A stretch of 64,000 nucleotides of DNA, from the NCBI GenBank assembly GCA_030374765.1, contig JARGXX010000099.1:186001-250000 (forward strand). Direction: 5' to 3'. Positions 22,629 through 60,060 of this stretch are shown here, in pieces (the first letter of the stretch is position 1; every line of letters begins with the position of its first letter). Below the pieces are notes generated by a model. The model saw only the letters and a list, made by a program, of their open reading frames with translations. It was not told the DNA's origin and made no database searches. The position numbers and the translations under genes are program-made. Source of the DNA: Agarophyton chilense (taxonomy: Eukaryota; Rhodophyta; Florideophyceae; Gracilariales; Gracilariaceae).

Positions 22629-22633
22629 GAGTG

Positions 22634-23440: not shown

Positions 23441-23462
23441 AGGCGCAAGTACGACATCCGCG

Positions 23463-28082: not shown

Positions 28083-30785
28083 GGGCGGGCTGTAGACGAA
28101 TACCCAATGGGTTACAAATGCTTGTGCAAACGTGAAAGCGGATATCTTCCGTAAAGGTACGGTCCGAACCAGTTTTGAGAAACGATCCGTGATAACGAGT
28201 AAAAACTTATGCCCACGTCGTGGGGTGAGGAGCTCGCCGAGGATGTCAATGGCGACAAACTCGAGAGGAGCCCGTGCCGGGAAGAGTTTCAACTTCGTTA
28301 AGTACTTGCGAAGTTTCACCCGATTCTTAGCACATTCGGTACAAAACCGCACCGTTGCGTAGCAATCCACCGCCAGGGCGGGCCAGTAGAAGTTCCTTCG
28401 CAAAGTGAGGTAGAGCTTCCGTCCACCGGCGTGTCCACCAAGTTTCGCATAGTGCGATAGATGCAAAACTCTAGACTGTAGAGTATGCGGCACCACGACT
28501 TGTGGGGATGACTGAACCGTCCTGACGAGGTATCCAAGATCGTTCACCTCGAAAGGGGGTTGTGCACCGCCATTAAGCCAGGCGCGAATCTTCGTACAGA
28601 AGGGGTCACCCTGCTGTTCTCTGACCATCTCCTCCGGGGGTATCGGCACAAAATCACCCGGCGGGGGTTTCTTTGAATCGTCCGAGACGAGCAATGCGTC
28701 AATATCATCGTCCGATTCCGGGCTTTCGTTCCATTTATCGTGTAACCAATCCGGGTCCCCCGGTGTTCCATCGTCTACGACGAAGCAAGGTATATCCTCG
28801 TCGTCGACGGCTAGAGCTTCCCCATTCGTGGGTAAACGCGAGAGCGCGTCCGCTTGCGCGTTCTGAGTGCCCTTCTTGTAGATCACTTCAAAGTCATATT
28901 CCGCGAGGCGGAGTCTCCAACGCATTAAGCGGCCTGACGGCTCCGAGATGGTCATGAGCCATCGTAGGGACGAGTGATCCGTGTAAACGGTAAAGTGCAC
29001 ACCCATGAGGTAGGGGCGGAGTGTAGAGAGGGCCCACACAACTGCGAGGCACTCCTTCTCCGACACGGAGTAGTTCCGCTCGTGGACATTGAGCGAGCGT
29101 GACCAGTACCCAATGGGTTTGCGTTCTCCTTCGGGAGTAGTTTGAAAGAGCGCACAGCCTACCTGGTAGTCGCTAGAGTCCGTGTCCACGGAAAACGGTA
29201 GTCCGGGTTTCGGTAACGATAGAATCGGAGCTGATGTGACAGCCTCCCTAAGGGAGTTAAAAGCATCCGTCTGGGCGGACGTAAAGGGGTCCAGTTTAGG
29301 TGGTTGACCTTTCCGCAGAAGCGCGTTCAAGGGGGCCGCGATGTCAGCGAAGTTAGGGATAAACCGTCGGTAGACGTTGACCAATCCTAGAAAGGAGCGC
29401 AGTTCCGTCTGGGTAGCGGGTTCTTTCGCCTTGCGAAGGGACCTCACTCGAGCTTCCTCGATCATTACACGTCCAGGACGGATAATGTGCCCGAGATACT
29501 TCACAGTATCGGTAAAGAACTCACATTTCCTCAGTTTGAGGGTTATTCCAGCATCACGTAGCGTGGTTATTATGTCCCTGACATGGGTGAGATGGTCATC
29601 CAGATTGTCTGAGAATACAATGATATCGTCCAAATAGACGAGGCAAGGACGCCACTTAAAGCGGGCCAACAAAATGTCGATAGCACGCTGAAAGGTAGCG
29701 GGAGCATTGGTTAGACCAAAAGGCATCCGTTTGAAACGGTAGAGTCCCGAGTGACAGACAAACGCAGTCTTATCTTGGTCCTCCTCCCTAACGGGAACCT
29801 GCCAATATCCCCAATTGGCGTCCAAAGCCGTGAACACGGTAGCAGTGCCGAGAGAGTCGATGTACTCATCCATTCGTGGGATCGGATACACGTCCTTGAC
29901 GGTAACATCATTCAAGCGACGGTAGTCGATGCAAAAGCGCCAGGACCCATCGGGTTTCGGAGCCAGTACCACTGGGGATGCCCACGGCGACTGAGCCGGT
30001 TCGATCACTCCAGCTCGGAGAATTTTGTCCACTTCGATCTGTTCCTCTTCTCGAGCCTTGGGGCCTGCCCTGTAAGGGTGTTGAGCCACCGGTCGGGTGT
30101 TCGGCAATAAATCTATCCGGTGTTCCGTTGTAATTATCTCACCAAGAGAGCCATCCCACATTGTGGTAAACTCCCGTAACATCTCACGCAGACTTCCACG
30201 GTGTGACTCCGGTACATGACCGAGGTCGAGTTTCTCGAGTTCTTTCACGGGGTCTACCCGGTCGTAACTCGTCGGAACGGGCTTCTTTTCTGTTTCGGCA
30301 GGTTGCGATTCCGAATCATTCGGTGATTGGACGGCAGCTTCCTCCCCCTCCTTAGAGTGAACGAGACCGAGGACTTCGGCAGCGGTCAGCCTAGTGGGGA
30401 CCATTGCGGTGGGGTGAGGCATTACCGATCCAATAACTTGGTTTTTCACCAGTGACTGGGGGGTGGGGGCCCAGATTGGCAACGAGCACGGTGAACGGCT
30501 TATCTGGGACAATCTGCGCGACTCCATTCGCCACGGCGAGTTGATATCCATCGTAAAGAGATGAGAGAGGCTGAATGACTCGTAAACCGTGTTTACGGGA
30601 AGTGACACGCACCCATACTTGGGACTTTGGCGGGATTCGGACAGACGCAGCCACGCGGAGCTTGGTAGACTTCCTAGAAGCGGGTGGAGGTTCCTGCGCG
30701 GCAGGGAGCGGTACGTGCTTCTTGGAGGCACGCCGCAGCGGACGACGGACAATTGGGACCGACGAGCCGTCTTCCATCTCAACAC
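28077..30785 (-). pseudogene. E2 reverse transcriptase, RNase H and integrase N-terminus
   Basis: Open for about 900 codons. RT motifs: WASPVVLAPKPDGSWRFCID, FTALDANWGYWQV, MPFGLTNAPATFQ and the catalytic YLDD (LVYLDDIIVFSDN). RNase H includes FSVDTDSSDYQVG, EKECLAVVWAL and YTDHSSLRWL. The integrase zinc-binding region has HYAKLGGHAGGRK ... C-TECAKNRV, and the first catalytic Asp is in FVAIDILGEL. The frame ends at VFVYSPPG, where a one-base indel moves the rest of integrase into the next frame. About 100 codons at the N-terminal end are out of frame with protease. Confidence 0.9.
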
Positions 30786-31287
30786 GCTTTAAGCGGGGCC
30801 TTATGACGTCAACGAATCTGTCACAGAAGTCACATCCCAAGATGATGGGGGCAGCCAATTTCCGGCATACAATAAAGTCGAGTTTCACCACGAAGGAGCC
30901 CAAGCGAACGATGAGAGCGACGGTTCCAACCGTTGGCAACGGGTTGTTATTCGTGTCCGCGTCGTCGGGCGCCACGCCAAGGCGGATCTGAGACCGCAAG
31001 GGCGGGGACAGCAGCGACTCCACGATGAAATTCGGACCAGCACCTGTGTCCAAAACAGTAAGGACTCGAACCATAAACTGGGTAGAAAGGCCAAGGTCGG
31101 CATGCACCTTGTAATTGCGCTTGGCCATTACTAAGACTCTATCCGGGATCCGGCGGTTAAGAACACGTGTCCATGGTCGATGTAGAACACCAAAGTGTTC
31201 AGATTCCACATCTGAGACGGCCTGTTTCCTCGTGAGGATTGTGACCGGGGAGCGAGGCGGAGACACCTCGGGCGTCGTCAACCTCAC
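30391..31287 (-). pseudogene. E2 aspartic protease region
   Basis: Contains VLTVLDTGAGPNFIVES, a retroviral-type DTGA active site, followed by IILGCDFCDRFVDVIRPRL. It processes Gag-Pol. It leaves frame at a C-rich run (plus strand G-run, about 30,460-30,471). E1a reads through the same point in one frame, so this is a mutation. Confidence 0.85.
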
Positions 31288-31325
31288 TGTTGGGGACGCC
31301 TCTCCCGAAGGGGAGACTCCCGAAA

Positions 31326-33455
31326 TCAGTTTTCCTGAGTCCCATCCGCCTGGGGCGGGGCCTCAGAATCCTGAACCACTAGCAATGGGGCGCCAGCGGC
31401 GGGGTTTGAAGGAACGGAGCGGTGGTCGGAAGCCTGCTCAGCAGGGTAAAGAAACCCATTGCGCGGTTTCGCCTCCGGAATACTCCGTGGAAAATCGATC
31501 TTCGCTCGAAGATACGACGTCATCGGAACAATCCGCTTTTCCACTGGGGTTAACGCCTCATAATTACCGATTACTCGGGCTACTTCCCTCATGGTGAGGA
31601 TACAGTCTGGTGAAATGTGACCGTGTTAGTAGCATATGTGGCATATGAGTCCCGGGCGTGAAGGCTGCAAACCGGAGCGAGCATCCGTGAACTTCACCAC
31701 TTGGCCGGTATCCTTCCATCCAGGGCGACTATGTCGGAGCGCACCGTTTGAATACGGTATGCGAGGTCCGTGAACACGGGGAGAGTCTGCGTACAGCAGG
31801 GGTCCATCCTGGGCCGTGTCATATGAGTCGTCCGTCGTAGACGGTAGTTCGGTTGTCGGGACCGAATGGATATCGCTTCGGGCGAAGTGTACGTTGTCGT
31901 ACTCCTGTTGGGGGCGCTCAATCGCAACCAGCGATAGAGATGGCGACTTCGTTTCCATCACCAACACCTTGGCGGTTCGCGACCTGTGTCCGGGGGCACG
32001 AGCTCTTAAAGCGTCACCTTCCGCTTGCGCGTGTTGGACCAACTCCAGATACGTGGTCTTCCTTCGGTCTTCCCGGTAACGGGCCACGAGTATTCGGATA
32101 GCGGGGTCCAGTCCATCAATGAACATGGTGCAGCGCTCTCCGGCGGAGTGTACGTTCCCACTACGGTGAAAAGCCTTGTTCAGGCGCACCGAGAATTCGG
32201 TTTCCGTTTCTCCAGACTTCTGGCGCGTATCGCGAAGAGCGAGAATGGCCGACTGAATCGCGTGATTAGTGGCGTAGGACCTGAAGAGGTGTTGTACTGC
32301 TTCTGGCCAGCAGGTTACCTCTCCTTCGGAGGCTCTAGACGAACCTCTTACAGAGTTGTATTGATCCTCGGCGAGGCCTTTCATAAAGTACGGGAGTGCA
32401 ATAAACGCCTGTCCTTCGGTCATACCGAGAATATCCGCTTCGGCGACGAACCTCGCAAGGAAATCCAACACCAAAATGGGGCCTTCTCCAGAAAAGCTCT
32501 GGTTCCTGAGGGACAGTTGCATACGCTTTATGCAATCCTTCACTCTACCCGTGCCACGGGGCGTGCGATCCAAAGAGGAGTTCTCTAGCCGATAGTATCG
32601 GTAAGAAACCAACTTCTTGTACAGGGGGTTGGTGCATTTCAGCTCCTTCAACCCGGAGTATTTCCTTCCCTTCTCGCGGGCGCGGATCACACCTTGGGTG
32701 GCAGACGACCGTTTAGAACGGGATGAACGCCTGCGATGGCCATCGTCAGAAGACGAATCTGACGAGTCCAACCCATTTGAATGGTGAGAGCCACGCGACG
32801 ACCCTGAGGAGTTCGACGAGTCCGAGTCATCGCTGTCACGCTTTCCACGCCGACGGCGGGTATCGTCCCTTTTCCTCTCGTGTTTCGCTTGGTGCGACAC
32901 AGCAACCGGCTTCTACGGGACGTCTTCCATCAAGATGGTTTGCTCTAACGTCTGGAGACGGGCGCTAACACGATTGAATCGGGTCTCGACACCTTCCACG
33001 TAAGCGGCGGAACCACCAAAACATTCCAACAGGGTGTTGACGTCCGCCCGCAACAAGCGGAGGTCGTCAACCACTTCCTTCATAGAAGAGCCACCACACC
33101 TGGAACGCAGGGCTTCGAACTCTTCCACGAAGACATTGTGCGCTTCCCGCATTATGCGGATCTGCTGCCTCACACTTGAGTTGGTGTCGATGTGGAACTC
33201 GTTTTTCTGGGCCTTTTCGTCGGCAGGAGCCGAGTCATCCACGGCAGGGGCCGGTCCAGCACCAGAATTGGGTCCATTCTTCGGCTTCTTAGGCGGTAGC
33301 TTGTTGTTCTTGGAGGAGTTCGACCCCTTACTCTTGCCTTTCGGAGCGGCTTGAGGTAACGGCTGGGGAACCCTTCCAGGGTCCGCAGGCACCACGTCAT
33401 TGACGGAACGGCTCCGCGTGATCGCGGGTTCCGCTTCCGACGGTAGTCGTGACAT
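31326..33455 (-). pseudogene. E2 gag pseudogene with CCHC zinc knuckle
   Basis: Start ATG at 33455 (MSRLPSEAEPAIT). Coiled-coil-like N-terminal part (RQQIRIMREAHNVFVEEFEAL ... ETRFNRVSARLQTLEQ), a Lys/Arg/Ser-rich hinge, a capsid-like segment (YYRLENSSLDRTPRGT, SFSGEGPILVLDFLARFVAEA), then a CX2CX4HX4C zinc knuckle at about 31,595-31,645. Two in-phase stops: TAG at 32913-32915 and TAA at 31626-31628. The latter falls inside the knuckle where E1a has Lys, so it is a point mutation. No other shift was found in gag. Confidence 0.88.
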
Positions 33456-33600
33456 GGTTGTAGCGTTGACCACTAAGAATAGGACAACAAAAGCTTCCAC
33501 CAAGTGGGTCCAAACCAAGAAATTAAAAAGCAGATCTCGACGAGAGAAGACAGCACAGCAATGTGAAAAACAACCAAACCAGGTCCCCCTAGCCTTATAA

Positions 33601-33612
33601 GTCGGGAGACCA
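33601..33612 (-). promoter_or_regulatory. E2 primer binding site
   Basis: The minus strand reads TGGTCTCCCGAC, three bases inside the 5' LTR, starting with the TGG that pairs with a tRNA CCA end. The match with the E3 site extends to 15 nt. The primer tRNA, ending GTCGGGAGACCA, could not be identified. Confidence 0.85.
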
Positions 33613-33615
33613 GTT

Positions 33616-34536
33616 TGTAGTGCAACGCCAAGGGCGGCGGAAACACACGAAGATGTCCGAGTCTTCCTCCAAGGAGGGTAGCACGGCGACGGAGCCTCTC
33701 CGGAGTGAACACGACTAAGTCGGGGTGTAAGGCCGAGGTTCACTGGCACCCCAAGCGGGGAGAGTGCAGGATGCTAGAAGGGAGCAGACCAGGTATGAGC
33801 TGTATTCCACGGGAGTGGGCAAGTATCGAGATCGAGTAATGCACCCACAGGAGTGGCGGTAAACCCGGTAAGCCGGCGCGCGGCACACGCGCGAGCAGCA
33901 CGAATAACCAACCACAAAGCAAAAGGGGGAGCTACCACGAGAGTGGGTAAGCGATAAAGGGGGGACCACCCAGTGGGGGCGATCGGGGGCATGGGCCACG
34001 GGAGCCAAAAAAATATGTAGCAAACCCAATACTGGGGCGAGAACACGGCAGTGGTATGAAAGATATACACGCTAACAGCGGTGAGTCTCCTGTTGACGCA
34101 GGGTGGATAAGTCTACCGTTAGTAACGCGGCTTCACCTCCGTAGAGTGTGGAAGACTCGCGAAAGCGGAAAAAGACTTAGAGCCAAGAACCCTGGTTGGG
34201 GAGGTTTACTGAGTGTCAGGGCGAGATCGCCCTGGCACTATATAGTGTAGAATACTGTAAAGAGCTCCCTAACCTAGTGTAATAAAGCTAAATGAATAGA
34301 GAAATATCCAGCTATGCTGTGCCAATCTGTCCTGGGCCACCCGTGGTACACGTGGGTAAGTCACACCGGAATCGGGGCCACGGCGCACGGCCACCGGTGC
34401 ACTTCGCGTACAACGCGTATACACCTGGCTACGCCAGCCCGCTAGTAGCGGTATTACTCATAGATCTCACAAGTATCGCCCGAGGCGGAAAAACAACCAA
34501 GTCCTGGAAAACGGCCCTCACGAGGGTTGCACTTCA
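33616..34536 (-). repeat. E2 5' LTR (921 bp)
   Basis: Same termini as the 3' LTR, ending in the expected CA. The palindromic TATA core CACTATATAGTG is at 34236-34247. A 128-bp segment (about 33,824-33,951) absent from the other LTR is flanked by direct repeats GAGTGGGCAAG and GAGTGGGTAAG. Confidence 0.93.
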
Positions 34537-34680: not shown

Positions 34681-35289
34681 TGTCGTACAATCACCTCTGG
34701 GGTATGCTACTGTCTTGTCTCGGGAGCGTGGTGACGCTCAACCTTAGAAGGTAGAAGTAATAAACCTCGATGGTAACAGGGCACCGTGAAAACCCGCAGG
34801 CGCAAACGGCGAGGCAGCTAGCCTATACCGTGTAGGTGAACGATGGCAGGAGTCGACGCGCGGGAAAGCCTGTGTGGTAGTTGAGAAACGATGAACCAAA
34901 AGGTATAGTCGTGACCCAAGTGGTGCCTGTCTTTATCAGATTACGATGGGGGAGGTGCAGTTCCCTATATGCAGTGGACTGCACTCTCCAGATCACCCGG
35001 GAGGTGCCAGCAAGGCACGGTCTCTGACCTAGTGTCAGAGACCTGGCCAGCACTGGCTACAGTTCCAGGTGGCCACGCCACTACTGTACTAAAATAAATA
35101 TAATTACAATTACAAGTACTAACAATTACTCAACCAAAAGGTACATGTCAACACTACACGTGGCTGACAACACCTGGATGGTAGCTCGCCCGGAGCTGCA
35201 TGGCCGATGATCCCTCGCATCCATCACCTACAAGGTCAGTGTAGTATATTGACAACCTCAAAGGTCAGCCCTTCCGCCACTATATGACA
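34681..35289 (-). repeat. E3 3' LTR (609 bp)
   Basis: Contains eight exact ACC-N5-GGT sites (for example ACCTCGATGGT, ACCGTGTAGGT, ACCCAAGTGGT, ACCTACAAGGT, ACCTCAAAGGT) and several N4 or N6 variants, plus an AATAAATATAATTACAATTA tract. Confidence 0.95.
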
Positions 35290-35302
35290 GACCCCCTTCC
35301 TA
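35290..35302 (-). promoter_or_regulatory. E3 polypurine tract
   Basis: The minus strand reads TAGGAAGGGGGTC directly inside the 3' LTR; it resembles the E2 tract. Confidence 0.85.
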
Positions 35303-35537
35303 CCCGTGAGGCACGCCCCGTGTCTCCTTCCATCAAACCATAGATTTGTAGCGAGCGACAGCCGCGCGGGCATAGGAGTGGTGTCTGTGCGCGACGCGCA
35401 ATCCCTTGAGGTTCAGAACTCGGCGCAAGTATTGGTTGGGGAGGGCGCACAACGACGTCGCTGCACGAATTGAGCGACAACCATTCAGGTAGGGACTGTC
35501 AGGAGGGCGATGCAGTGTAACTAGCGCGCTCGCGGAC

Positions 35538-36307
35538 ACCTTTTCGGTAGTGGCCTTGTTTGCTTGCGATTCTGCTTCCGCATAGCCCCCTGTCTAACCA
35601 AGTTGGTATCTCACCCTTCCGGGTTACTCAAACGTCATTTTCCTCCTAGGTCCCTGCGCGCACCTTCCCGCCTGGTCGTTCCCACGGCTTGGCAACCCTT
35701 CAGGTATTGCTGCCCTTAATTGGCGGCGTCGCGACCGTAACCGTGCTGTCCGAATTACCCTGAAGGTTTCCTGGCTTCTCGACCTTTCAGGTTTCGTCTA
35801 CCTTGTCAGGATTGACTCGTGGCGCCGGTGAGGCCAGCGCCTGCGTCGATACAACCATTGAGGTGTTGGCGGGTCCGTGGTGGAAGCTTCCGGTTGTGAG
35901 ACCTTTTTGGTGTTGAGCGGCCCCGTCGGTAATTGCGCGACCTTTTTCCGGTTTTGCATTCCGGTCTACCCTCAAGGCGATGACAGGATCGCGCCGCCTC
36001 CGCGCACGCGTTCGAACCCATTCGGTGCCACGTCGGTGCACCTCGCGCTGCATCGTGGATCCGTCACCGATACCTCGAAGGGGTGGGTCCTCTCCACAAG
36101 CAGCACCAGCGCTCGAGAGACGTGAGATGCCGGTCACCATTGAGATTGAAGAAGTCGGTGATTCCGAGGGGATTGATACCCTTGCATTTATGCCTTTAAG
36201 GTCGGATTGGTCCCGCTCCACGATACCTCAAAGGTCTGGACCCACTCGCCACCGTACGCTGGCAACTGTTGCACCTTAAAAGTCGATGTCGGTACTACCG
36301 GAAAGGT
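35538..36307. promoter_or_regulatory. Array of ACC-N5-GGT palindromic sites in the E3 3' region
   Basis: Ten exact sites start at 35538, 35597, 35695, 35757, 35782, 35854, 35901, 36016, 36225 and 36297. At least six one-mismatch or spacer variants lie among them. About 0.2 would be expected by chance in this length. The five spacer bases vary but are often A/T-rich. The region has little coding potential, so the repetition is not protein-driven. A binding site for a dimeric protein is the simplest reading; its identity is unknown. Confidence 0.7.
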
Positions 36308-38445
36308 TGGATACGTTGGCCGTCTCCTCAGAACGGACCGAGGAGGCGCCACTTCAAAAGGATAAATACCCGCTGGTGTTCACCGCGGCGGTGGAGGTCG
36401 AGTCATCACCTCGTTCGTCGGGTCGAGCTACGGCCTTGCCAACCATGTCAGGTAGCGGCCCATCAAGTGGCCGTGGACGCGGTGGTATTACCAAGAGGGT
36501 GACACGCTGGACTTCTCGAACGCCTACCAACACTGGTTTTCGCAGCGTGCCTATCCCTGCGACACAGGTCTCCCCTGGGACTCCAGCTGACCAATACCAA
36601 CGCAGTGGTGGACTTCCTCCGACAACACAAACCAATTCGGCTCACAATCTCGCGTTCGGTGCCGCGAACCGGACGACGAGTCAGTATAGACCTTTTGGTA
36701 GTACCTTCGACCAGGTGACGAACAATGACCTGTTCAAGCACGATTGGCCTGTGGCGGTGGGGAATTCGTCATCGCCGGCAGCTCTTACCAGACCAAAATT
36801 GGATACCTACTTGGGTTTATCCCGTTGAGACTGCGAGCGCCTTCGCTCCGTTCCATTGCTTTTGAAGAAACGGGACCAAGAATCTCCACCTCGTCAGGGT
36901 CGACTGAAATGTTACCAGAGTCGGCAGCGTCATACACCTTTGAGGTATTTCATCCCGCCGATATATTCAAGCGACTTGGCGTATGTGCGCATCGAACCGG
37001 AGCTGGAATACTACCGTCGATTGGTGGCGCAAGTGTGCCAGTACCCGTCTATTCCAGAGACTTACCTTCCGGTTTCATCTGACTTGGTTTCCCTGAATCG
37101 GCCTTTCACCACTATCGATTGGGCTGACCGTAGTAGGTGGGGCGAGGATGCAGCGACGGAGAGTCGCGTTCGCACTCGCAACTCTTACACTCGCGTTATC
37201 CATATGTTTCATAACGTCGAGTACTTCTCACAACCTACGAAGGGCAGACGCGATTGATACGTGCTTCTACCAGAGTGGTGGGAGTGCTATGAGGTTCCTT
37301 TATCGCTAAGCGTGCCCACTCCGCCGGTTTTGGCGTACTTCGGGAGTCAGATTTCCCGGAACCTAGAGTGGTATTACCTCATTTGGTCGATTGCCCTCTC
37401 GGAGTGGACCGTGTTGGTTGCCATCCTGGCTCTGGAGGCCGCCCGTTACGGTGTCGATTGGGATAGTCGCAATCCCGACTCTGACATATACCGAGATGGT
37501 GTTCAACCTGTAGGTCGCACCTTCTTCATACCTCCGAGGGTTGCCCAGGATATTTTCCGATTTGGTTACGAGAACATCGTGGAGGGGACCGATTATACCG
37601 TGAAGGACTTGGACTCGTATCTCGAGCAGAGCAATAATTACCATTGGGAATCCCATCAAGGCTGGGAGGCTTTCGATCCCGCAACTTGGGAGACTGCGCC
37701 TCTCCACGCCCAATACTATCCCAGGGAGCCTTCTGTTTATGGAGCTCCCGCGAGCCCCGAACCTTATCACGGTATTGGGGAGACACCAGTTGGCCGTTAT
37801 GCTGGTCCCTTCCCGTCCGAGCCGTTACCTGAAGGTCGTAAGTCGCCTATCCCTACGGGTGTGACTCCTACTCAACCGAGCTCCCCGCGGGTTGCTGGTC
37901 CGGTTCGACCTCTGTTGGCGGGTATTTCTCGTCCTCCGCCTCAACCTATGATGGATTGTCCGGCCGTGGTCGGTTTTCTGGCTCGAATTCGCCATTCTTG
38001 CGTCACCAACTTTCAGAGGGCTGGGCCTACCTCTGTGGTTGCTGCATTAACGCTCCTTGAAGGTTTGCTGCCGCGCCATGCGCAATACATGAAGGCACTG
38101 AACCAACTTGGTGAGTTCCGGAATCAGTTCCAGTGGGACATGTACCAACTGGCCACCCGTCAGGTTGCCCATCTGGCAAGCGTCTCTGCTGCTGCGCCAT
38201 CTGATCCTTTGACGGATCTCCTTGTAGGTGCTAACTTGAACCCTGCGGTTTTGCACCCTGCTCCGGCGGTTCCTTTCGTTCATCCTCTGTTGGTTTCGAC
38301 TCCTCTCCCCAGTGGCGGGGCTACCGCTCCTTCGCTGCCTCTTAGGTCGATGGCTCCTAGCATTTCCGCGGGTTTTCCTCCATGGGTAGTCAATAAACCG
38401 GGTATTCCTGATTCCATTGCTCCTAAACCGACAGGCCCTTCTTAA
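36286..38445 (+). pseudogene. aORF of E3: accessory ORF antisense to gag-pol, with two in-frame TGA stops
   Basis: One continuous frame from ATG 36286 to TAA 38443-38445, interrupted only by TGA at 36826-36828 and 37255-37257. Similar-looking sequence continues in phase upstream to about 35,980 behind a TAA at 36277. The core matches E2 and E1b: YVLLPEWW (E2: YVLIPPWW), VPTPPVLAYFGS (E1b: VPTTSVVAYHS), WSIALSEWTVLVAILALEAARYG, then a Pro-rich tail and an amphipathic C-terminal part rich in Leu and Gln. The second TGA falls where E2 has Arg, consistent with CGA to TGA. It ends 159 bp from the convergent pol stop. Function unknown. Confidence 0.75.
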
Positions 38446-38604
38446 AGTAAATTGTTGTCTCTTCTTTTCTCCTCTACTGTTACATTTGGTTGTTCTTTTG
38501 TGTCCTCCCTTGTCCGTAATCTGACACGCATATGCGTCCACCATCTGCGGAAAACGACGTCTTTTCTCCCCTTCCTTAGGCCTGAATACCACGAAGGTCT
38601 AAGT

Positions 38605-40444
38605 TTAGCCTTCTGCAGGCATCGGCTCCTTGGGACGGCGCCAATACCTGATACGGAAGTGTGGGGGTAGTGTGGCTAGGGGCTCGAGGGTGTCCCCTTC
38701 TGGGCCCCAGCCGTACCACCTGACGGTGTACTTCAGACCATTGTAGGTTCGCGTGTGGCCCACCAGACGGTCAACGGGAAATTCCTCTGAGGTTTGGTCC
38801 TGGTCTTTCGGGGGAACGCTACCTCGAGGGTTCATATGTTCCGAATTGGGAGCTTCGTGTGTGGGAGCCGAGTCAGGAGCTCTCGCTGTTACCGTTTGGG
38901 GTTCAATTTCCGTCCCTGTTAGAAGGTTGTAATCCAGATCATCACGTTGACGGTCATCGTTCATCTCAATTGGGGTGGGGTCCTCCAATGGTCGAGTGCG
39001 CAGAGCTACAGCTCTGGGCTCTCGGGCTGAGGTGCCTCCCTCAATGCGATGTTGAACCGTTTCAGGTGCTACTGTAATACGGTCAAGTGATATCTTATTC
39101 GGCATTCCATCTTGTTCAACGGTAACGGTGTGGTCTGATGCGTTCAATACCTTATAAGGTCCCACTGATTTGGGTAGAAGCTTCGAATTGATATCTCGGT
39201 CAATAGCTTCATCGTCCGCTTCATCACCCGGTCGTAGTCTTTTACCTGAAGGTGGGTTGTCTATGTCTATGTAGACCTATTGTCCCGAAGATACAGAGAC
39301 CACTTTGGTTACCCTACGGTCGTAGTCGGCCTTGTACCGCTTCTGGACTGCAGTGAGGCGGCTCTCTGCATGTTTGCGAGCCCTCCTCAACCTCACAAGG
39401 GTATTCCGCTTGACCTGGGCAGGGGTCAGTGCGCCAGCTGCAGTGCTGGTGGTATGATCTCCCTGCACTACAATACCTGGGGGGGTGCCACGAAAGAACC
39501 AAATCAAAGGGAGTGGTCTGCGTTGACCGGTGTACCTGAAGGTTATAGGAGTAGGTGAGCGGTTGCACCAGCTCCTCCCACCCAGTTTGGTGCTCTTCCG
39601 TATAGTGTCGTAGCGTTGATACTAATGTGTGGTTAAAGCGCTCGACCTGTCCGTTCGTCTGCGGGTGGTAGGCAGTAGTGAAATAGTGCTTGATTCCCAA
39701 GAGGTTACAGACTGCTTCGAAGAATTTCGATGCCAGGTTTGAACCATTATCGGTAAGTAGGTACAGTGGTGCACCATACGGGTAGACCCAATTGTTGAGG
39801 AACGCAATCTCCAGCGTTGTTGACTTCGTCTCCTTTAAAGGTATCGCTCTCGTGAGCTTCGAGAACCTGTCGGTGATCACTAGAATGTGCTGATACCCGT
39901 TCTTGGTCTTGGGAAGTGGGCCTAGAAGGTCTATCGCAACAAACTCCAGCGGACCCGCTGCTGGAAACAGCTTGAGGTACTTTTGATGCTTTCGAATACC
40001 ACCGCAGGTACGAACACAGGATTCGCATTGACCTACAAAGTTATAGACATCATGGGCCATATGAGGCCATTAGAACCGTTGCCTCAAGGTGTAATACATC
40101 CTCGTGGGACCGGGGTGTCCGGATAGTCGCGGGTAGTGCGCGACATACAAGACTCTTTGGCGCAGTGCCTTCGGAACCACCTTTTGAGGGCTACCATCCC
40201 CGGTTGACCTTCTCACGATGTACCTATTGTGGTCCACATCGAATGGTGATCCTTTGAAACCAACTTGGTCAGCCAGGGTTCTGCAGTACGCATCCTGGGT
40301 CTGTTCTCGTAGAAATTCCTCTCGGGTTACGGGCATGACGTTTGTTTCCTCTAGTGTCAGTATCTGCGTTGCCATGTCGGTGCTCCGCAAAGCACCTTCT
40401 TCAAGTAAGTCCAAAACATCCTTCTTGGTGTTCGCCGGTACCAT
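38605..40444 (-). pseudogene. E3 integrase and chromodomain
   Basis: Zinc-binding part HYPRLSGHPGPTRM ... CESCVRTC; catalytic core with FVAIDLLGPLP, LLTDNGSNLASKFFE and TTAYHPQTNGQVERFNH, so all three DDE residues are present. C-terminal chromodomain FPVDRLVGHTRTYNG-LKYTVRWYGWGPEGDT. Broken by a stop at 40070 and frame changes near 39,310-39,170 and at about 40,444. Confidence 0.88.
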
Positions 40445-42063
40445 TTTGGTTTGATGACACCAAAAAGCAAGGGATATTATCGTCCACAGGTTCTGTCTCT
40501 AACCCTGAGGTGTTTAAGCGTGACATAGAGTCAGCTATGTTGTGCTTGATACCTGGACGGTTCTGTACGTCGTATTCAAACCCTGACAGTCTCAACCTCC
40601 AACTGGCAAGTCTACCAGACGCATCTGCGAGTCCGAGGATCCACCTTAAGGCGTCGTGGTCCGTGCGCAACGTAAAGCGCTCACCATACAGGTATGGACG
40701 GAGCATCAACATGCTCCACACTACTGCTAGACATTCCTTCTCGGTTACCATGTAGTTCTACTCCGCCTCATTCATAGCGCGGATCCAGTACCCTATAGGT
40801 AATTTGTCTCCGTTGTGCTGCTCCTGCATGAGACAACAACCAATTTGGGCATGGGATGCATCTGTATCCAGCGTGTACGGTAGACCTGTTTTCGGTATTG
40901 CTAAGATTGGCGGCGACAACAGCGCTCGTTTCAATTCCTCAAAGGTATCCCTTTCGTCATTCGATAGATTCTCAAACAGTTCAGGCTCACATTTCTGGAG
41001 CTTCTTGTTGAGGGGAGCCGCTATTTTCGCGAATCCCTTCACGAAGCGACGATAGACGTTACATAAACCTATAAAGGATCGTACTTCTGTCTGGAATCGT
41101 GGCAACTTGACCTCCTGTAAGGCTCTAATGTTGCTCGGCGCAACCTCTAGGGTACCAGGGCCTATGATGTGGCCCAGGTATTCAACCGTTCTGGTAAAGA
41201 AGACGCATTTGCGTAGCTTCAGCGTCACCCCCGTCTCAGCTAGGAGGGTTAGTACGGTGCGTACGTGTGCAAAATGCTCCTCTACCGATATGGAATAGAT
41301 GATTACATCATCGATGTATACCAAGGCAGTTGTCCATTTAACATTCGAAAGGATGATGTCTAGCGCCCTTTGAAAGGTGGCTGGAGCATTGCGCAACCCG
41401 AAAGGCATCCGCGTGAAGCGAAACAAACCTGCATGGCACGTGAAGGTCGTTTTGTCTCGATCTTCCTCACCTATGGGTACCTGCCAATAACCACAATTGG
41501 CATCCAACGTGGTAAGTATCTGCGCATCTCCCAAGGAGTCGATGCACTCATCCATTTTAGGTATCCGGTACGAATCCCTGATGGTCACGCTATTGAGCCT
41601 CTTGTAGTCTACACAAAACCTCATACGGTTATCCCCTTTCTTCTGAACCAGGACCATGGGACTAGCCCAATCTGAGTTGGATGGTTCAATTACACCTTCT
41701 TGGAGCATTCGCTCCACTTCTTTGAGTTCTACTTCTCTCGCCTTCGGACCTGCACGGTATAGTTGCTGATAAATCGGCTTCGAGTCAGGGAGGAGCTCGA
41801 TGCGATGCTGTGTCGGGAGGTTGGCTCAAGTTCCGAAGTACCGCCTCAGGTAAGACGCGGGAGTTCAGGACGTTTGGGCCGGCCCCCATATCCAACATGC
41901 AGGTGACCGGAACCGCAAGGCGATCGGAGAAACACATTGAAGCACATAATTTATAGTTATCGTACTTCATATGACAGACCGGAACTTGTTGTGACGTGTT
42001 ATCTTCCACCTTCAAGGTTCTAGGTATCGATTGGCCTTCCACTTGCAGGTTGGGTTCGGCCAT
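40401..42063 (-). pseudogene. E3 truncated protease, reverse transcriptase and RNase H
   Basis: The protease begins MAEPNLQVEG and reaches its active site MLDMGAGPNVL (DMGA instead of DTGA), but after NSRVLPEAVLRNL it jumps, out of phase, straight to the PTQHRIELLPD segment that precedes RT. About 300 residues present in E2 are missing (junction near 41,820). RT is well kept: WASPMVLVQKKGD, FTRMPFGLRNAPATFQ and catalytic YIDD. RNase H has LDTDASHAQIG, a stop at 40755-40757, then EKECLAVVWSM and LRTDHDALRW. Confidence 0.88.
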
Positions 42064-44090
42064 TACGCCAACCGTTCGGTGTTTTCCTCCTGTACGGGAG
42101 GGGTTGAGTCCAAGTTTGGTGTTTCCTCGATGGTATGGACCTGTACCGGTGTACGGGGTTGGAACCTATTTGGTGCTTGCGTTGAAGACCCATAGAGGCG
42201 TTGGTGATTCTGCATGCGAGCCTGACTGAACTGGTCTCTCATCCCTGGAGGTAACTTAGCGCAATTGTTTGCCAAATGGTCTGTCGCGAGACAGAACCAT
42301 CAAACGAGGCCTCCAGTTTGGGGGTCTCGCGTTACCATTGAGGGGGGCCTCGAAACCTGGTTGGTAGGAACAGTGGCATAGGATGTGGGTGGCGAGTGAT
42401 GGGAGCTCGCTCCCTGCATCCTATGCGTGCTCACCGCACTTATCGGCGATTGTACCGAGTTTGGTGTATGCGTTGACGACCAATTTCCTACCGTCGAAGG
42501 TTTCGAGAACCACCCCTGGGTCGCTACCAAGTGGATAGCGGTCCTTGTAGGTACTTCGTTGTGCGGGCTACCCTCTGAGGTTGTGGTGTCTTCAATTTCC
42601 AAGACAGACCTTTTCGATTTATCCTTCGAGGCTGAAGGCACGGCTGGTCTCTTTCCCAGCCGAAGGGTATCTCCAAGGCCCTGGGAGTATCAAGCCATCC
42701 CATTATATTCTACCTTTCTGTTAGTGGCCAGGTAGTTTCGTACCTGGGAACGGATCGCTTTGTCGGCATTGTCGGCAAATAGCGACTTTAACCTAGAGGT
42801 AGTGAACACATTACCACAACGGGTTGCCAGATTCCACAGCGCGAGCGAAAACTCCGATTCCGTTTGCCCAGACCTTTGATGGTAGGCGAGGACTTCCGAA
42901 TAAGCCTCTTGGATAACCTCATCGGTGGCGTATGTTTCCAGAAGGAAATTGACCACCTCTGGGTATGACTCCAACATCTCTGCGCCATCCTCATCCATCG
43001 CTAAGGTATTGCCGCAGAGCCTACCCTGCAGCAAGTAGTATGCTTGCCCTTTCAGGTAAAACTGAAATAGCCAAATAGCAGCGCCCTCGGAAAAACCATT
43101 TTGGTCACATGAAATCTTGAACTTCTGTAGAAACTCAATCATCGCAATAGGATCCGTACCTGTGAAGGTGGTGCCACCCATTTGGAAGCTGAGCTTCTTG
43201 TGGTGCTTAGTAATCTTCTGAGCAACCTCTTGGGTATATTCAGAAGACTTGTTAATCAACCGATAAGTCCTGTAGTCAACCACTTTGGTGAACATATCGT
43301 TCAACGGTTGGGACACCTCCAGGTCCATTTCGGTGTCCGTCTCACAGTCGGGCGACTCATTGTATCGCTTTCTATCCTTTCGGGTCTTTTTCGACTACTT
43401 CTTCGTCGACCTCTTCGTTTTCTTCTTCTTCTTACCTTTACGGTCATCATCCGACGATGAACTCGTATCGGAACTGGAGTCTGACGAGTCGGGGTCTGAA
43501 TCATCCTCTAGATTCTTTCCCCTCTTCGTCCTCCGCTTCTTCCCTTTTCGGTTTCTTCGTCGCTCATCCAACGAGTCGGACGAATCGTCCTTGGGACCAC
43601 CTCCATGGGTATCCTTTTGAACGAAACCAGTAATTGGTGGCAGATAAATGTCTTGAGGATCTACCTTCCTTGGGACCTCTTGTCTCTGCTTTGGACCTTG
43701 TAGATACTCACTATCAGTATGTAAGTGTTTGGAATGGGTGGAATGGCCCATTTGGAACCCTTGTGGTATGCGCTTTGCGATGTTCACCTGTGTAAGTCGG
43801 GATTCTGCGAATCCCTCGGAAACCCAAAGGTCCTGCACAGCGCGGTAAACATGCTCCCTAGCATCTGTAAAGAGATACTGTTTCACCATTTCAGGTATCC
43901 TGTCCGATAGCTTTTGAGCTGCTCGGTCAACCACATAACGGGTATATGCATCGACGTCCATTGAGGGCGAAACCATCCGTGTATCCGACTTCTCCTTTAG
44001 AGTTAATGCATCCTCGACCGCGAGGGTGACGAGCGCTTTCGCTCGTTTCTTCGAGCTAAGGCCATAGCTCCTCCGCTGCAACCTCAATTG
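42064..44090 (-). pseudogene. E3 gag pseudogene
   Basis: Single phase from about 44087 to 42063, interrupted by stops at 43395 and 42690 and one more near 42,300. It has an N-terminal part (VEDALTLKEKSDTRMVSPSMD), a strongly charged Lys/Asp/Ser hinge (43,400-43,560) and a capsid-like domain (YRLINKSSEYTQEVAQKI ... GTTFTGTDPIAMIEFLQKF). A zinc knuckle was not seen, although E2 has one. Its terminal TAA overlaps the ATG of the protease frame as TAATG. Confidence 0.82.
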
Positions 44091-44407
44091 GTAATTCCCT
44101 TTGAGGTTCCGTTACCATAGGCGGCAGACCATGTACCTTTACGGTTTTGTCCCGAGGGTGCTGAAGCAGCTTCTAGAGGCTCTCCAGAATCGGTTGAGCC
44201 GATGGGGCTCCTTTAAAACCTGTATGGCTTGGCGGGGCGCTTTCACCACGCGTATTCTTTTTAGGTCGTTCCATTTGTGACCAATCGAGGTATCCTGTAT
44301 TGCTTTGCGGGATTTCCTGAAACCAAATAGGTGTACGAGCGTTCAATCTTTCTCGGCATCTCGTGTGAACCGTGAGGGTAGGAAGAAACCCAAAAAAAAC
44401 TTTCTAA

Positions 44408-44419
44408 GTCGGGAGACCA
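44408..44419 (-). promoter_or_regulatory. E3 primer binding site
   Basis: The minus strand reads TGGTCTCCCGACTTA three bases inside the 5' LTR, identical over 15 nt to E2. Confidence 0.85.
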
Positions 44420-44422
44420 AAA

Positions 44423-45031
44423 TGTCGTTCAATCACCTCTGGGATATGCTACTGTCTTGTCTCTGGAGCGTGGTGACGCTCAACCTTAGAAGGTAGACGT
44501 AAAAAACCTCGATGGTAACAGGGCACCGTGAAAACCCGCAGGCGCAAACGGCGAGGCAGCTAGCCTATACCGTGTAGGTGAACGATGGCAGGAGTCGACG
44601 CGCGGGAAAGACTGTGTGGTAGTTGAGAAACGATGAACCAAAAGGTATAGTCGTGACCCAAGTGGTGCCTGTCTTTATCATATTACGATGGGGGAGGTGC
44701 AGTTCCCTATATGCAGTGGACTGCACTCTCCAGATCCTCTGGGAGGTGCCAGAAAGTCACGGTCTCTGACTTAGTGTCAGAGAACTGGCCAGAACTGGCT
44801 ACCGTGCTAGGTAGCCACGCTACTACTGAACTAAAATAAATATAATCACAATTACAAGTACTAACAATTACTCAACCAGAAGGTACATAACAACACCACA
44901 CGTGGCTGACAACACCTAGATGGTAGCTCGCCCGGAGCTGCATGGCCGAAGATCCCTCGCATCCATCACCTACAAGGTCAGTGTAGTATGTTGACAACCT
45001 CAAAGGTCAGCCCTTCCGCCACTATACGACA
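44423..45031 (-). repeat. E3 5' LTR (609 bp)
   Basis: Same length as its partner. Six of the eight exact ACC-N5-GGT sites are kept despite about 5% divergence; two are lost by substitution and one N6 site (ACCGTGCTAGGT) is present. Confidence 0.95.
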
Positions 45032-45036
45032 TTCTA

Positions 45037-46439
45037 CGACAGAAAAGGCATCGTAGCTATCATTTTTGGTTCCCGCCGGATAATTTGGAACTCTTTGTTC
45101 AAGATTTTCCTTTCTATTTCTTAAAAGATTGCTTGGCTTAACTGCGAGGAGCTCGTTAACATCGTAGGGAAAAAAATCGTATTATTATTTGTTGAATCAA
45201 TCCTTGAATACGCGCTTTTGGCTATCATTTTGCGAACACTTGGGCTAACCGAGTCTGTTCATGATACGAATATTTATTCATCTCGTCGTTCTGGTCCGGA
45301 TTGAAACATTACTTCGATCTTTTTAAACAATACTTATTTTATATTTATTGGAATTGATCAAGCTACTGACGACCATTTCTCGAATCTCCTTTACACCCTG
45401 TTCTTCGAAGTTGCCGACGAAGGAAGTCCACACAGTGTGATAAGCACATAAGGGGGCTTCATTTAAGGAGGTCAAAGCCGAGAACTTTCCGTACTCCAAA
45501 TTCACACTAGGTGCGTGAAGACAGGGAACCAAGGACGCCACTTACTCATGCCTCATTCTCGTTTTCGAAGGAGGCAGAGTTCCATTACGCTGAAGTATCG
45601 CGAAATATCTTATCGGTTTGTTCCTTTTCAGAATCTTTTCGACCTTTGCATCCAGGCGGCCATATGCAATGGCCTCGATCTTCTTGGTTTAAATGACTTT
45701 GGGATGTACTGACAGTTCTTTTCCAGAATTGCATGCTTCTTTAAAACCGAAAACGAGCTTTCGTCGCGTATTCGCGACTCCTTTGATGCTCAAAAGCATC
45801 TTCGACAATGGAATGTTACTCTCTGCAATGTCACCAGTGGTAACTGTCCGAATGTTTGGTTTAATATGTTCTTGCTCTTACATCCGGTGTATATTTTCTC
45901 ACTTTCGACGGAACCAACGGCGTGATCCACAGTATGGTAATCCGCACCGGCCATCAAATCATCCTCGATTGTGTTGAGGAGTATCCGTTGACGTGGTGCC
46001 AAAGGGCCCACGAGGGTTGCGTTGGCGATACTTCGACTTTGACGAGCATCCGCAAAGTGCGGAGGATCCATGTTCCCGATACTGAAAGACGCTCTAAGAA
46101 ACCTTGTCATCGAAATGGAAGGAACAATAGGAAAAAGCGTCGCAAGCTCGAGATCCAGCGCGAGAGGACTAAGAAGACTCGTGCATCGTAGCTTCATTGG
46201 TAGGTGAAGAATCCATATGATAAGGCATCTTCCTACATTAACGTCGTACAACGCTACAATAAAAGGTTTCGTGTGTTCCCTTCACAAAGCTCGCCTGCCC
46301 ACAGACATCAGCTCAAGCTTTATGGATCTGAATCCGCTCGACGAGAAAGCAACTTCAATCTACTACGTCTTCATTCGAGCTTTATTCTTTTTACCAACCA
46401 GTCTGATCATCCTTTAACTGCGTAGATGGACCGGTTTCT
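45037..46439. other. Unassigned sequence between E3 and E4
   Basis: AT-rich, with modest ORFs on both strands (for example a 153-codon minus-strand frame, 45790-46251) that resemble no family I know. Part may be the 3' untranslated end or LTR of E4, whose termini I could not find. Confidence 0.4.
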
Positions 46440-47450
46440 ATTTTGTAAAGAACTAACCTTCTCGCATAAACGGGTGTGGGAGATACATGTCCCATGGAGG
46501 ACAGAAGACCGTAGCGAGGGTGGTTGGCCCTCGTAACGATGCATGAGTCATAGTAGTATTACTTGAATGGCGGCCATTCGTGCGACAAGTTAGAGGCCGG
46601 TCCATATGCACCTTACACTTCGTCTCCGACATCATAGTATTTGACTTTTCCCTTGGTCACACGAAGAATACACGCTCTTTCGATTTGAATTGCGCGTGCT
46701 CCAGACTCGTCCATTAATTCTAATGCTCGATGAAGCGGCCTGCCACCCTGCAAGAGGGACATGGTTTCATTCGCAATCATCCTTGGTTTGATTCCGTACA
46801 TCAACTGGAATGGGGACGGAACGGTTCCCCTATCGCGGCGCCGGTAGCCATACAAATCGTGCGGTAGGGAGTCGGCCAGTCCAAGTTGGTACGGCCAACT
46901 GTCCTCTTAATGACCAGTTTGATAGTAGCCACCACACATCAGCTCTTCCGTTCGGCATAGGCGGGTACGAAAGTACGGTTTTCCACACGATCCCATGCTT
47001 CGTCTTCGTTGGCCCAATTGGCAGTATGATCTCCTTTGAAACAAAGACTATCACTGTGCTTGCAGTGGCGTTCCCAGTGGCCCCTGCAATAGACCATCCT
47101 TTAAGATGATCCACTGCGATGATAGCGAATCTCTTTCCATTCTTCGATGCGATGAGGGGACCTGCTAAGTCTATCGAAAACGTTTCGAACGATCCCGTTA
47201 CCGGATCACAAAGGTTCTTGTGGCAGTTCGGGAGCCTCTGTCCGTGTTGGCACCCATCAAAATATCGGACATAGTCCACCACATCCCTGTAGACGCCAGG
47301 ACCCCAGAACCCGTCCCGAACAAAGTTCCTCGTCGTCTAGGCATCCCAATGTACTATCTCGGCATCAAACATTCCTATGATCTGTCTGCGATCATCGATA
47401 AGTGGGACGGCGCGTAGCCCAGTGGTCTCTCTCCGAAAAAGCGCATCGTT
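46440..47450 (-). pseudogene. E4 integrase
   Basis: YFDGCQHGQRLPNC is the zinc-binding end. FSIDLAGPLIASKNGKRF carries the first catalytic Asp. PFQLMYGIKPRM and a C-terminal part down to about 46,440 (HPRYGLLSSMGHVS-TPVYARRL) close the protein. The middle of the core, with the second Asp and Glu, is degraded and the frame changes at least once. Confidence 0.78.
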
Positions 47451-49099
47451 TCACAGCATTAATCTATTCGTGTTTCTCTTGATTGATTTATTTCTTTTAC
47501 GGCCCTCATCCTGTTCTTGAACTCCGGCCAGGAACCTGGCAACATTAAGTAAGTACGGTCCGAATCCCGAAAGCTCAAGGTCCGCCCACGAAATTGTAGC
47601 GATGACCTCTTCTTGTAACTCTCCTTCAATAGTTTCTGCCGTCGGCGAAAGTCCAGTCATGCCGTACAGGTAATCCGCCGCGCCATTTAATATCTTCGAG
47701 CGATGCTTAATATCGAAGTTGTACTCAGCCATCAAGTCCATCCATCGGGCCAATCTCCTATGGACATTCTTCTTCTTCAACCCGTACTTCAGAGGCTGAT
47801 GATCTGTCAGCACAGTGAATGGATATAAGAGAGAAGATACACTCTGACCTTATTCAAAGCGAATACCACTGCGAGGGCTTCTTGTTCACTCGCATAATAG
47901 CGTCTTTCTAATTCCGTCATTATACGCGAAGCGTAATGTAGGGGATGTAATTTCCCATCCTTCTTCTTCTGAGAGAGAAGAATTCTTAATGCTACTGATG
48001 ATGCACCGGTTTCCACTAAGAATGGATCATCAAAGTCAGAGAAGGCCAGAAGGTGAGGCGTCGTAAGTTTATCCTTCAGATGTTCAAAGTCAATCTGCAC
48101 TCACCTCGTCTATTCAAACCTTTTCTTGGCGGAGGTGGCGGCGTGAAACACCGCGGAGCTCCTTGCAAAGTTCTTGATAGAGCGGCGATAATATCCCGCC
48201 AACACAAGGAAACTCCTCAACTCCGTGACGTTGGTAGGCACGGAAGCAATAATAACCTCCTTAATCTTGTCCGTGTCCACCTTAATTCCGTCAACAATAG
48301 TGATTTTTCCAAACAACTTTATCTCTGATTGTGCGAAACTGCACTTGGTGACCTTAACATTCAAGTTGGCTTCCAAAATTTGTTCGAAAACTGTCCAAAA
48401 ATGACGGAAGTGTTCCATGGTCGTCTTCAAGAAGATCACCACATCATCCACATATACCACTGCGAATAGAAGATCCTGAAGGACTCCATCCATCATTCTC
48501 AGGAACGTCTAGGGGGCGTTCATCAATCCAAACGGCATCACTTCGAACTTGTGTTTTCCATAGCGGCATGTAAACGTCGTCACCTCCTTGAAATTCTTCG
48601 CCGTGCGGACTTGCCAGTACCTGGTGTAGATTTCCAGAGTTGTGAATATGTTCGATCCAGCGAGGTCGTCCAAAATCATCTCAATATTCGCTAACTTCCA
48701 CCAGGTTTGCTTCCTCACCCTGTTCAACTGACGGCAATAAATACAGAATCGTGGCCTACGGTCCTTTTTCATAGCTACGACTATTGGAAATGGCCAAGCT
48801 GAGCTTAAAGGTGTGATTACTTCAGCTTCAAGCAGTTCGTGAACTTCATTACACACAATTGCGTTGTGCGTCGTTGGCATCCTGCGCACTCTGGAATGGA
48901 TCGGAGTGTAGTCCGATACCTCGAAATAGTGCCCCAACGGAACATCAGCCGCCTTTACGTCAGTAATATCCCAGATGGTAATGTTGATCTCTTTCAAGGC
49001 ATTCGTCAGGTCCTCTTGTGCTTCCCGAGGCACGTGGTTCATCTTCGACGCCAGGAGAGCAGAATGATTCCCCTCCTTATCAACATCGGAGATACCCAC
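47451..49099 (-). pseudogene. E4 reverse transcriptase and RNase H
   Basis: RRPRFCIYCRQLNRV, ILDDLAGSNIFTTLEI, YGKHKFEVMPFGLMNAP and catalytic YVDD (AVVYVDDVVIF). RNase H: YYASEQEALAVVFAL and LTDHQPLKYGL. In-phase stop near 48,509, another near 48,105, and a frameshift near 47,810. Confidence 0.85.
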
Positions 49100-49358
49100 G
49101 TTGCGATCGAAGGCCTGTTAGTTTGATTCATACATCTCCTTGTTCACTATAGCCAATACCAAGTCTGGCTCAACGTCAGATTCATCCCCGGACACGAAAG
49201 GTGATGAAGATGACGCTTTAACAGACCTCCCAGCGTTGCACGTCGGACTTTTCAGAAGATGTGAGGTCCTTGCTATCTGCACGAGCGCCATTTTTAACAG
49301 GGGGTTAGTTATAGAATGGTAACAGAACCTCTTCTGCTGCGACTGTAAGAGTAACCTG

Positions 49359-49829
49359 CTAATTAATAAAATCTAGTCGCGCCTGCAAATAATCCAGCGT
49401 CGGGCTACCAACAATGGCATCAAACGAAGTATTCTGGACGACACGGAAGTCCAAGGGGATGCTCATCGCACCAAAAGAGACCGGTACATCTTTGACACAC
49501 CCTATCACATGTGCGAAAGTCCCATCGGTGATAGTGACTTTCTTTGACGTGGCCAGGGGCGAAAAAGCAAACTGTTCACACAACTCAAGAGAGAGTAGAT
49601 TCGGAACAGCTTGAGTGCCAAAAATGTCGCAAGTTCCCGTTCCATACAGCTTCTCCGACAAAAATTTCAAACGATGAGGGAGGCTAGAGGCTGCCAAGAC
49701 AGACACATGGCTCTTAGGCAGACACCCAGCCTGTAAACGCTTCGGAAGCTTCTTAGAATCTTCAGCATAGCCACGGAGTAGCTGTTCAAGGGTGACCCCG
49801 CACGATGCGGAACCCAGATCGGCTATCAA
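49359..49829 (-). pseudogene. E4 aspartic protease
   Basis: Begins IADLGSASC, the DxGS active site of retropepsins, and later has FDAIVGSPTLDYLQARLDF, the ILG-like strand near the C-terminus. It sits between gag and RT as expected. It has lost its link to RT by a frame break around 49,100-49,360. Confidence 0.78.
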
Positions 49830-58289: not shown

Positions 58290-58299
58290 AAACGAACAC

Positions 58300-60055: not shown

Positions 60056-60060
60056 TCCCA

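Follow-up and report, generated by a model that had tools for sequence, protein, structure and literature searches.

Why should a retrotransposon carry one short interrupted palindrome dozens of times along its length, in its genes as well as in its non-coding DNA? The question is raised by E3, an element in a 64,000-nucleotide stretch of the red alga Agarophyton chilense (GenBank assembly GCA_030374765.1, contig JARGXX010000099.1, positions 186,001 to 250,000; hereafter the window). E3 is of the Ty3 type, with a pair of long terminal repeats (LTRs) around gag-pol that includes reverse transcriptase (RT) and RNase H; RT precedes an integrase-like part in pol, as read from the open reading frames (ORFs). 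A further ORF, here called the aORF, runs antisense to gag-pol in the interval that separates pol from the downstream LTR. A preliminary description of this DNA had counted about 45 copies of ACC-N5-GGT in E3. Is the excess real, and is it a property of E3 alone? Does it act in DNA or in RNA, and what might read it?

The excess is confirmed and is larger than first noted. E3 contains 59 exact ACC-N5-GGT sites, among them all 14 of the gag-pol coordinates that had been named and the same 8 and 6 sites in the two LTRs. At this spacing dinucleotide shuffles of E3 (n = 1000) gave a mean of 3.3 and a maximum of 11, and trinucleotide shuffles (n = 500) a mean of 6.9 and a maximum of 15. The N4 and N6 variants, also said to be frequent, number 24 and 34, with 12 at N7, 5 at N8 and 1 at N3; the shuffled means per spacing were 3.3-3.5 (dinucleotide, N3-N8) and 6.9-7.1 (trinucleotide). 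When every pairing of 64 with 64 triplets was scanned over 26 spacings (106,496 dyads), ACC-N5-GGT ranked first in E3 (z = 19), and those ranked after it are for the most part shifted, extended or respaced versions of it. The dyads with spacings N4 to N7 total 129. As the preliminary description had it, they span coding and non-coding parts: their density per kb is 18 and 16 for the two LTRs, 12.2 for the non-coding stretch, 12.4 for the aORF region and 11.5 for the gag-pol side. They are spaced slightly more evenly than random (coefficient of variation 0.73 versus 0.89, P = 0.011).

Codon preference, rightly discounted at the outset, is ruled out as the source of the dyads by synonymous-codon shuffles, in which seven E3 ORFs with 62 dyads gave a mean of 18.5 and a maximum of 27 (n = 300). 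Such shuffles are exceeded in E3 and in two further elements, E2 and E5, and are not exceeded in two host genes. Tandem or longer dispersed repeats as carriers of the motif are ruled out by two checks: Tandem Repeats Finder reported 0 arrays in E3, and the surroundings of 52 N5 sites are no more similar than random (best match 15.3 versus 15.2 of 35). MADS-box-like sites of the form CC-W6-GG were considered and dropped, the best spacing being N5 with spacings 4 to 7 all present.

The motif is carried by the family and not by the window copy alone. Thirty E3 copies were retrieved around the aORF, and each of them contains 32-61 dyads over roughly 4.2 kb, versus 5-7 when shuffled. The E3 LTR has at least 40 other copies among the matches listed, at 94-95% identity (best of 918 candidates scored), and the aORF, interrupted in the window, is open in other copies, up to 875 aa (L057:55-2682). 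Across the 79.8 Mb genome, two sites in close succession (ACCN5GGT-N15..45-ACCN5GGT) occur 2609 times, versus 236 for the reversed pattern. Among the first matches listed, all on one contig, is a locus (G000 C1:118449-120161) with 19 N5 sites within 1.7 kb, roughly double the E3 density. Part of its spacing is repeated 19 kb away, at C1:137436-137854, upstream of an E3 copy (aORF C1:141113-142291). This locus is possibly another, perhaps non-autonomous, family that uses the E3 code.

The E3 dyad reads like a sequence-specific site with tolerance graded by position. Sites with one mismatch are in 1.3 to 2.5 times excess when the first base is changed and in 2.8 and 1.7 times excess with A at the second base; the third base is strict, changes there showing no excess. 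The inner pairs of E3 dyads do not covary (29 versus 33.2 expected, of 119). As a separate observation, the centre base of the N5 spacer is G or T in 38 of 53 sites (P = 0.006 uncorrected), a possible weak strand bias.

Are dyads of this kind restricted to E3? The preliminary description had placed the similar element E2 at chance level, which was wrong: E2 has 12 ACC-N5-GGT sites versus 4.1 when shuffled, and other palindromes are greatly in excess there. CGC-N4-GCG and CGC-N5-GCG occur 31 times each versus 4.9 in shuffles. Stems of 4 bp number 85 with loop 3, 61 with loop 4 and 47 with loop 5 (24, 23 and 23 when shuffled), and 5-bp stems with loop 3 number 36 versus 7. C:G is the commonest pair at the stem base and closes 76 of 169 triloops, and the E2 code is largely base-unspecific. 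E5 (L061-L065, all copies of one family) has a pol 67-70% identical to that of E2, and 72-79 stems of 4 bp with loop 4 in each of its five copies versus 22-25. Relatives of a third element, E1, have 133 CC-N3-GG, 142 CC-N4-GG and 89 CC-N5-GG versus 59; these were counted in L068, around the E1 aORF, and in L070, which adjoins L068 and is assigned to E1 by adjacency only. L067 and L069 show the excess likewise at N3 and N4. The window copy of E1 (L066), unlike its genome relatives, has little CC-N3..5-GG excess, and L071, 4.1 kb upstream of L068, has no dyad excess and was excluded from the E1 counts. The families differ in the CC..GG spacings that are over-represented: N3-5 in E1, N4-6 in E3, N5-9 in E2 and N5-10 in E5. 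Thus four aORF-bearing Ty3-type families, E1, E2, E3 and E5, each have a short-dyad code of their own, a possibility already raised in the preliminary description, and in E3 and E2 both the LTRs and the genes are covered.

The contrast is provided by E4-type and host DNA. An intact E4-type pol (L074, 1.5 kb) gave z = 0.7 for 4-bp stems with loops 3-5 and z = 0.2 for CC-N3..9-GG, while equal-sized 1.5 kb pieces of E2 and E5 gave 5.4-10.3 and 4.0-6.5. A host piece scored 1.7 and 1.6. The E3 piece reached no more than 1.8 and 1.3, since the two measures are not tuned to the E3 word. Host DNA at 9000-22000 has a mild CC..GG excess (42 at N4 and 40 at N5 versus 29).

What rules do the arms obey? 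In E2 and E5 they are nearly any sequence, provided that they pair. The inner pair of E2 CGx-N5-x'CG is Watson-Crick in 85 of 135 cases versus 34.2 expected from the margins, and that of E5 CCx-N4-x'GG in 49 of 85 versus 21.9. Pairing is cooperative in E2 CC-N8-GG, where, given the first inner pair, the second also pairs in 40 of 58 cases versus 15.9. Only Watson-Crick pairs are favoured: in E2 stems G.T (58 versus 54.8) and A.C (48 versus 49) show no excess, and the same absence holds across E2 and E5 stems, those of 5 bp included.

In E3 and E1 the rule lies at the border of the core, where pairing of the next bases outward is avoided. Complementary flanks adjoin the E3 core in 9 of 119 dyads versus 30.7 expected, below all 20,000 permutations (minimum 14), and the E1 core (L068, L070, L072; CC-N4..6-GG) in 76 of 428 versus 109.5, again below all 20,000 permutations (minimum 79). 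Outer pairing is not avoided in E1 at N3 (63 versus 57.7 of 209), there is no clear effect for ACC..GGT at spacings 9-20 in E3 (12 of 61 versus 15.3), and there is none in other DNA (9000-22000 and 53000-64000; 52 of 178 versus 45.6). The first outer pair of E2 at N9 (17 of 124 versus 28.3) and the second outer pair of E5 at N8 (1 of 25 versus 6.1) point in the same direction, on smaller numbers, and some other E2 and E5 classes do not follow. Avoidance of the sites of other families was tried as the cause of this flank rule and is not supported, since 4-bp-stem hairpins are not depleted overall in E3 (observed/shuffled 32/20, 24/24 and 25/24 at loops 3, 4 and 5).

Do these dyads act as DNA or as RNA? 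RNA folding in short windows, compared with shuffles and given in kcal per 60 nt for the two strands, gains -1.0/-1.7 in E5 and -0.8/-1.1 in E3. The gain in E2 (-0.3/-0.6) is within 2 standard errors and not significant, and E1 shows none. Loop centres show no strand bias in E2 or E5. Watson-Crick pairing without wobble, the near strand symmetry of E2 and E5 and the absence of a significant folding gain in E2 and E1 favour DNA over RNA. We infer that the dyads act in DNA, equally on its two strands, and that a protein reads them.

Are the sites maintained? With the window copy as reference, identity among E3 copies is 0.939 in arms, 0.913 in orphan ACC/GGT words and 0.900 in the rest. Because the copies are young, private variants (in 1-2 copies) were compared with shared variants (in 4 or more) in two sets of 30 E3 loci, one of LTRs and one of aORF regions. 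Private variants are equally frequent in arms and elsewhere. With an inclusive arm label and LTRs included, shared and private variants stand at 19:560 in arms and 255:4642 in the rest, so that shared variants are rarer in arms than in all the rest (odds ratio 0.62, P = 0.044). When arms are labelled by majority, columns with shared variants are 12 of 372 in arms, 190 of 2953 in background, 19 of 358 in orphan words, 22 of 332 in spacers, 11 of 120 in flanks and 4 of 12 in mixed columns. The conservation among copies that the preliminary description had proposed as a check is thus found in direction, its support is weak, and as evidence of selection on E3 arms it is suggestive only.

Individual sites do come and go. 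Of 114 dyad positions in the E3 aORF alignment, 56 are present in at least 20 copies, 11 in 5-19 and 47 in 1-4, and at the 11 polymorphic dyads the non-carriers are mostly one substitution away (up to three commonest types per site). Between families, 12 of the 118 hairpins in E2 recur exactly in E5, and for 30 of the 118 the centre of an E5 hairpin falls within 3 nt, versus 17.6 expected. This suggests that density is kept while most positions turn over.

Which protein could be the reader? The aORFs of E1, E2, E3 and E5 are, judged by their alignments, one diverging protein family: identity is 46% over 227 aa between E2 and E5, 26% over 281 aa between E1 and E3 and 35% over 92 aa between E2 and E3, and E1 and E2 are barely related (E = 0.004 and 0.009). 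The closer pairs match in code type, E2 and E5 having free paired arms and E1 and E3 having fixed short CC cores with an unpaired border. This parallel between aORF kinship and code type makes the aORF product the first candidate for reading the code. The E2 aORF has a basic N-terminus (+13, residues 1-80) and an acidic stretch (-20, residues 481-560), a layout that would fit a nuclear regulator and proves nothing; the E3 aORF copy L057 lacks this charge contrast. Six aORF relatives were found in a database of 5.8 billion proteins, with about 8000 word-sharing candidates scored per search, and the four that are named come from Agarophyton chilense (twice), Gracilariopsis chorda and Gracilaria domingensis, the first two species being gracilarialean red algae. 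Among 2000 candidates 68 E2 aORF copies were scored, with 91-96% identity besides the window itself and several of them stop-free, and for these two reasons the E2 family looks recently active.

Our preferred reading, to which we give a rough probability of 0.45, is that selection acts on the dyads as DNA sites for a family-specific protein, for which the aORF product is the likeliest candidate. The element's own antisense product would then read the dyads, coat the copies of that element as well as those of code-sharing relatives, and by this coating keep the copies active or regulate them; a shift in its specificity would drive the change of code between families. As the dyads cover the LTRs too, it would be the whole element that is marked. 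The stronger form of this proposal is more tentative: a self-recognition code, in which a fast-evolving, antisense-encoded protein would read dyads that pair over a fixed length and not one step further, with about 10 or more sites per kb making the entire element an address label.

Several observations weigh against this reading. The link between aORF and dyads consists of four families with both and one, the E4-type, without a marked dyad excess and perhaps without an aORF. E2 and E5 are kin in pol too, which gives the same grouping, so the parallel between aORF and code may only mirror kinship of the elements. No Pfam family was found at E up to 1 for seven of eight aORF proteins of these families; the remaining one, P0005, has a single weak match below cut-off, to a family other than VANC. 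An AlphaFold model of the E2 aORF, from a five-sequence alignment, is unusable (pLDDT 34). With a dimer on double-stranded DNA it is hard to see why E2 and E5 arms of almost any sequence must pair, or why pairing should be shunned by the adjoining outer bases, and spacings that range from 4 to 7 are broad for a rigid dimer. The excess is not perfectly confined either: L074 has 33 stems of 4 bp at loops 8-10 versus 18, and 3-bp palindromes with loops 3-7 are in mild general excess (z 1.6-2.8 at 9000-22000 and 1.2-3.8 at 1-9000). The conservation test is weak, with P = 0.073 for arms against orphan ACC/GGT and P = 0.076 against background. Finally, some RNA folding gain does exist, in E5 and E3.

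The pairing rules could also come from a tiny DNA hairpin of fixed stem length per family, if folding and not sequence recognition were selected, either in single-stranded complementary DNA during reverse transcription or on extrusion from supercoiled DNA. Inner pairs that covary cooperatively with any base in E2 and E5, the avoidance of pairing beyond the core in E3 and E1, variable loop lengths and the frequent closing of E2 triloops by C:G would all fit. The cores of E1 (2-3 bp) and E3 (3 bp), however, are of fixed sequence and too weak to fold alone, and E3 lacks inner covariation. We consider the hairpin unlikely, and keep it in view because the fixed-length rule is not explained by a simple dimer.

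Less likely again is a host DNA-binding factor that silences the elements or is recruited by them, as Su(Hw) is on gypsy. The sequence-specific, graded E3 motif would suit such a factor, but nothing seen ties one to the aORF families alone, and four families with different codes would need several.

About as doubtful, or slightly more so, are RNA hairpins that would serve Gag, or some other RNA-binding protein, as packaging signals dispersed along the element. The range of loops is hairpin-like, the whole element is covered as genomic RNA would be, and the short windows of E5 and E3 fold somewhat better than shuffles. Yet neither E2 nor E5 has an excess of wobble pairs; E2, the richest in hairpins, folds no better to a significant degree and E1 not at all, and strand bias at loop centres is absent from E2 and E5 and weak in E3.

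A mutational process that writes inverted repeats without selection, such as template switching in reverse transcription, is improbable. Copying would yield arms of arbitrary sequence that pair strictly by Watson-Crick rules, as seen in E2 and E5, but E3 repeats one fixed word, its polymorphic sites are mostly one substitution away from the non-carriers, and random copying would not keep bases that flank the arms from pairing. An origin in chance, codon usage or base composition can practically be dismissed, the dinucleotide, trinucleotide and synonymous-codon shuffles all failing to reproduce the dyads and no point in its favour having been found.

Table 1. Elements and features of the window that bear on the dyads (positions counted from its first base; dyads are ACC-N4..7-GGT)
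Feature	Position	Strand	Remarks
E1 aORF remnant, window copy L066	7023..8150	+	375 aa
E2 element	22599..34310		ends approximate; stems 4-5 bp, loops 3-5; C:G common at stem base
E2 antisense aORF	23463..25400	+	open, 645 aa
E3 element	34681..45031	gag-pol -, aORF +	Ty3-type LTR element; aORF between pol end and downstream LTR
E3 LTR, downstream relative to gag-pol	34681..35290		11 dyads, of which 8 are N5
E3 non-coding stretch, LTR to aORF	35291..35780		490 bp; 6 dyads, 5 of them N5
E3 aORF region for dyad count	35781-38445		33 dyads
E3 antisense aORF	35818..38445	+	interrupted in window copy; start approximate, set by homology
E3 aORF, remaining ORFs	36286-36828; 37261-38445	+	
E3 gag-pol side for dyad count	38446-44421		69 dyads
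E3 gag-pol remnants	38605..44087	-	
E3 chromodomain-like end	38605-39165	-	score under Pfam cut-off
E3 integrase-like part	39314-40060	-	named from reading it
E3 RT/RNase H	40758-41717	-	RVT_1 111 bits; RT_RNaseH_2 59.8 bits
E3 gag-like	42690-43328; 43395-44087	-	
E3 second LTR	44422..45031		10 dyads, 6 of them N5
E4-type element remnant	45032..52000		contrast sequence, without marked dyad excess

Two further observations concern the contrast sequences. Four E4-type RT matches at G000 C49:4097-24244 follow one another at an exact 6523-base step, which resembles a head-to-tail array of a related element. In the host DNA of the window, a long ORF (17330-20221, 963 aa) has weak GRAM, DUF639 and reticulon/Pex24-like matches under the Pfam cut-offs.

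How does this code compare with known systems? None of the records listed in our literature searches describes such a dyad code, which is no proof of absence. The Su(Hw) cluster of Drosophila gypsy is compact, non-coding and serves one host zinc-finger protein. E3 would share with it repeated, here putative, protein-binding sites inside a Ty3-type element, and differs in being saturated over its whole length. Single-stranded RNA viruses have dispersed packaging signals, many short hairpins with a common feature across coding sequence; unlike these, the dyads show no excess of wobble, and the RNA folding energy of E2 is little changed.

The family-specific code offers a direct and inexpensive test of aORF function, and its fixed-length rule, to pair inside and not outside, is a sharp constraint on any mechanism. 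In plant LTR retrotransposons (Grande, RIRE2, Retand) an ORF termed aORF-3R is of unknown function, and some of these proteins have been reported to be nuclear (PMC7264820). The E3 aORF has the same position, antisense to gag-pol between pol and the downstream LTR; the portion of that account available to us does not mention a dyad code.

The nearest parallel is the VANC/VANDAL system, in which, according to the parts of the published account on which we draw, an anti-silencing protein encoded by an Arabidopsis DNA transposon binds a motif of 8-9 bp accumulated in its own family, the VANC21 motifs lying in tandem repeats, in the same orientation and mainly in non-coding DNA (PMC5735166). As there, a short motif is dense in its own element family (strongly so in E3) and related families have different motifs. 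Unlike there, the motif is two-fold symmetric and dispersed, forms no arrays in E3, extends through coding DNA and belongs to LTR retrotransposons of a red alga. The VANC precedent invoked in the preliminary description therefore holds in logic and not in form, and given this difference we do not file the code as a VANC system: by analogy it would be VANC-like without being a member. If the aORF proteins do bind their own dyads, it would follow that the choice of codons allows genes to be filled with binding sites, and there would be, besides VANC, a differently organised form of transposon self-recognition, found in a red alga and in elements of another class.

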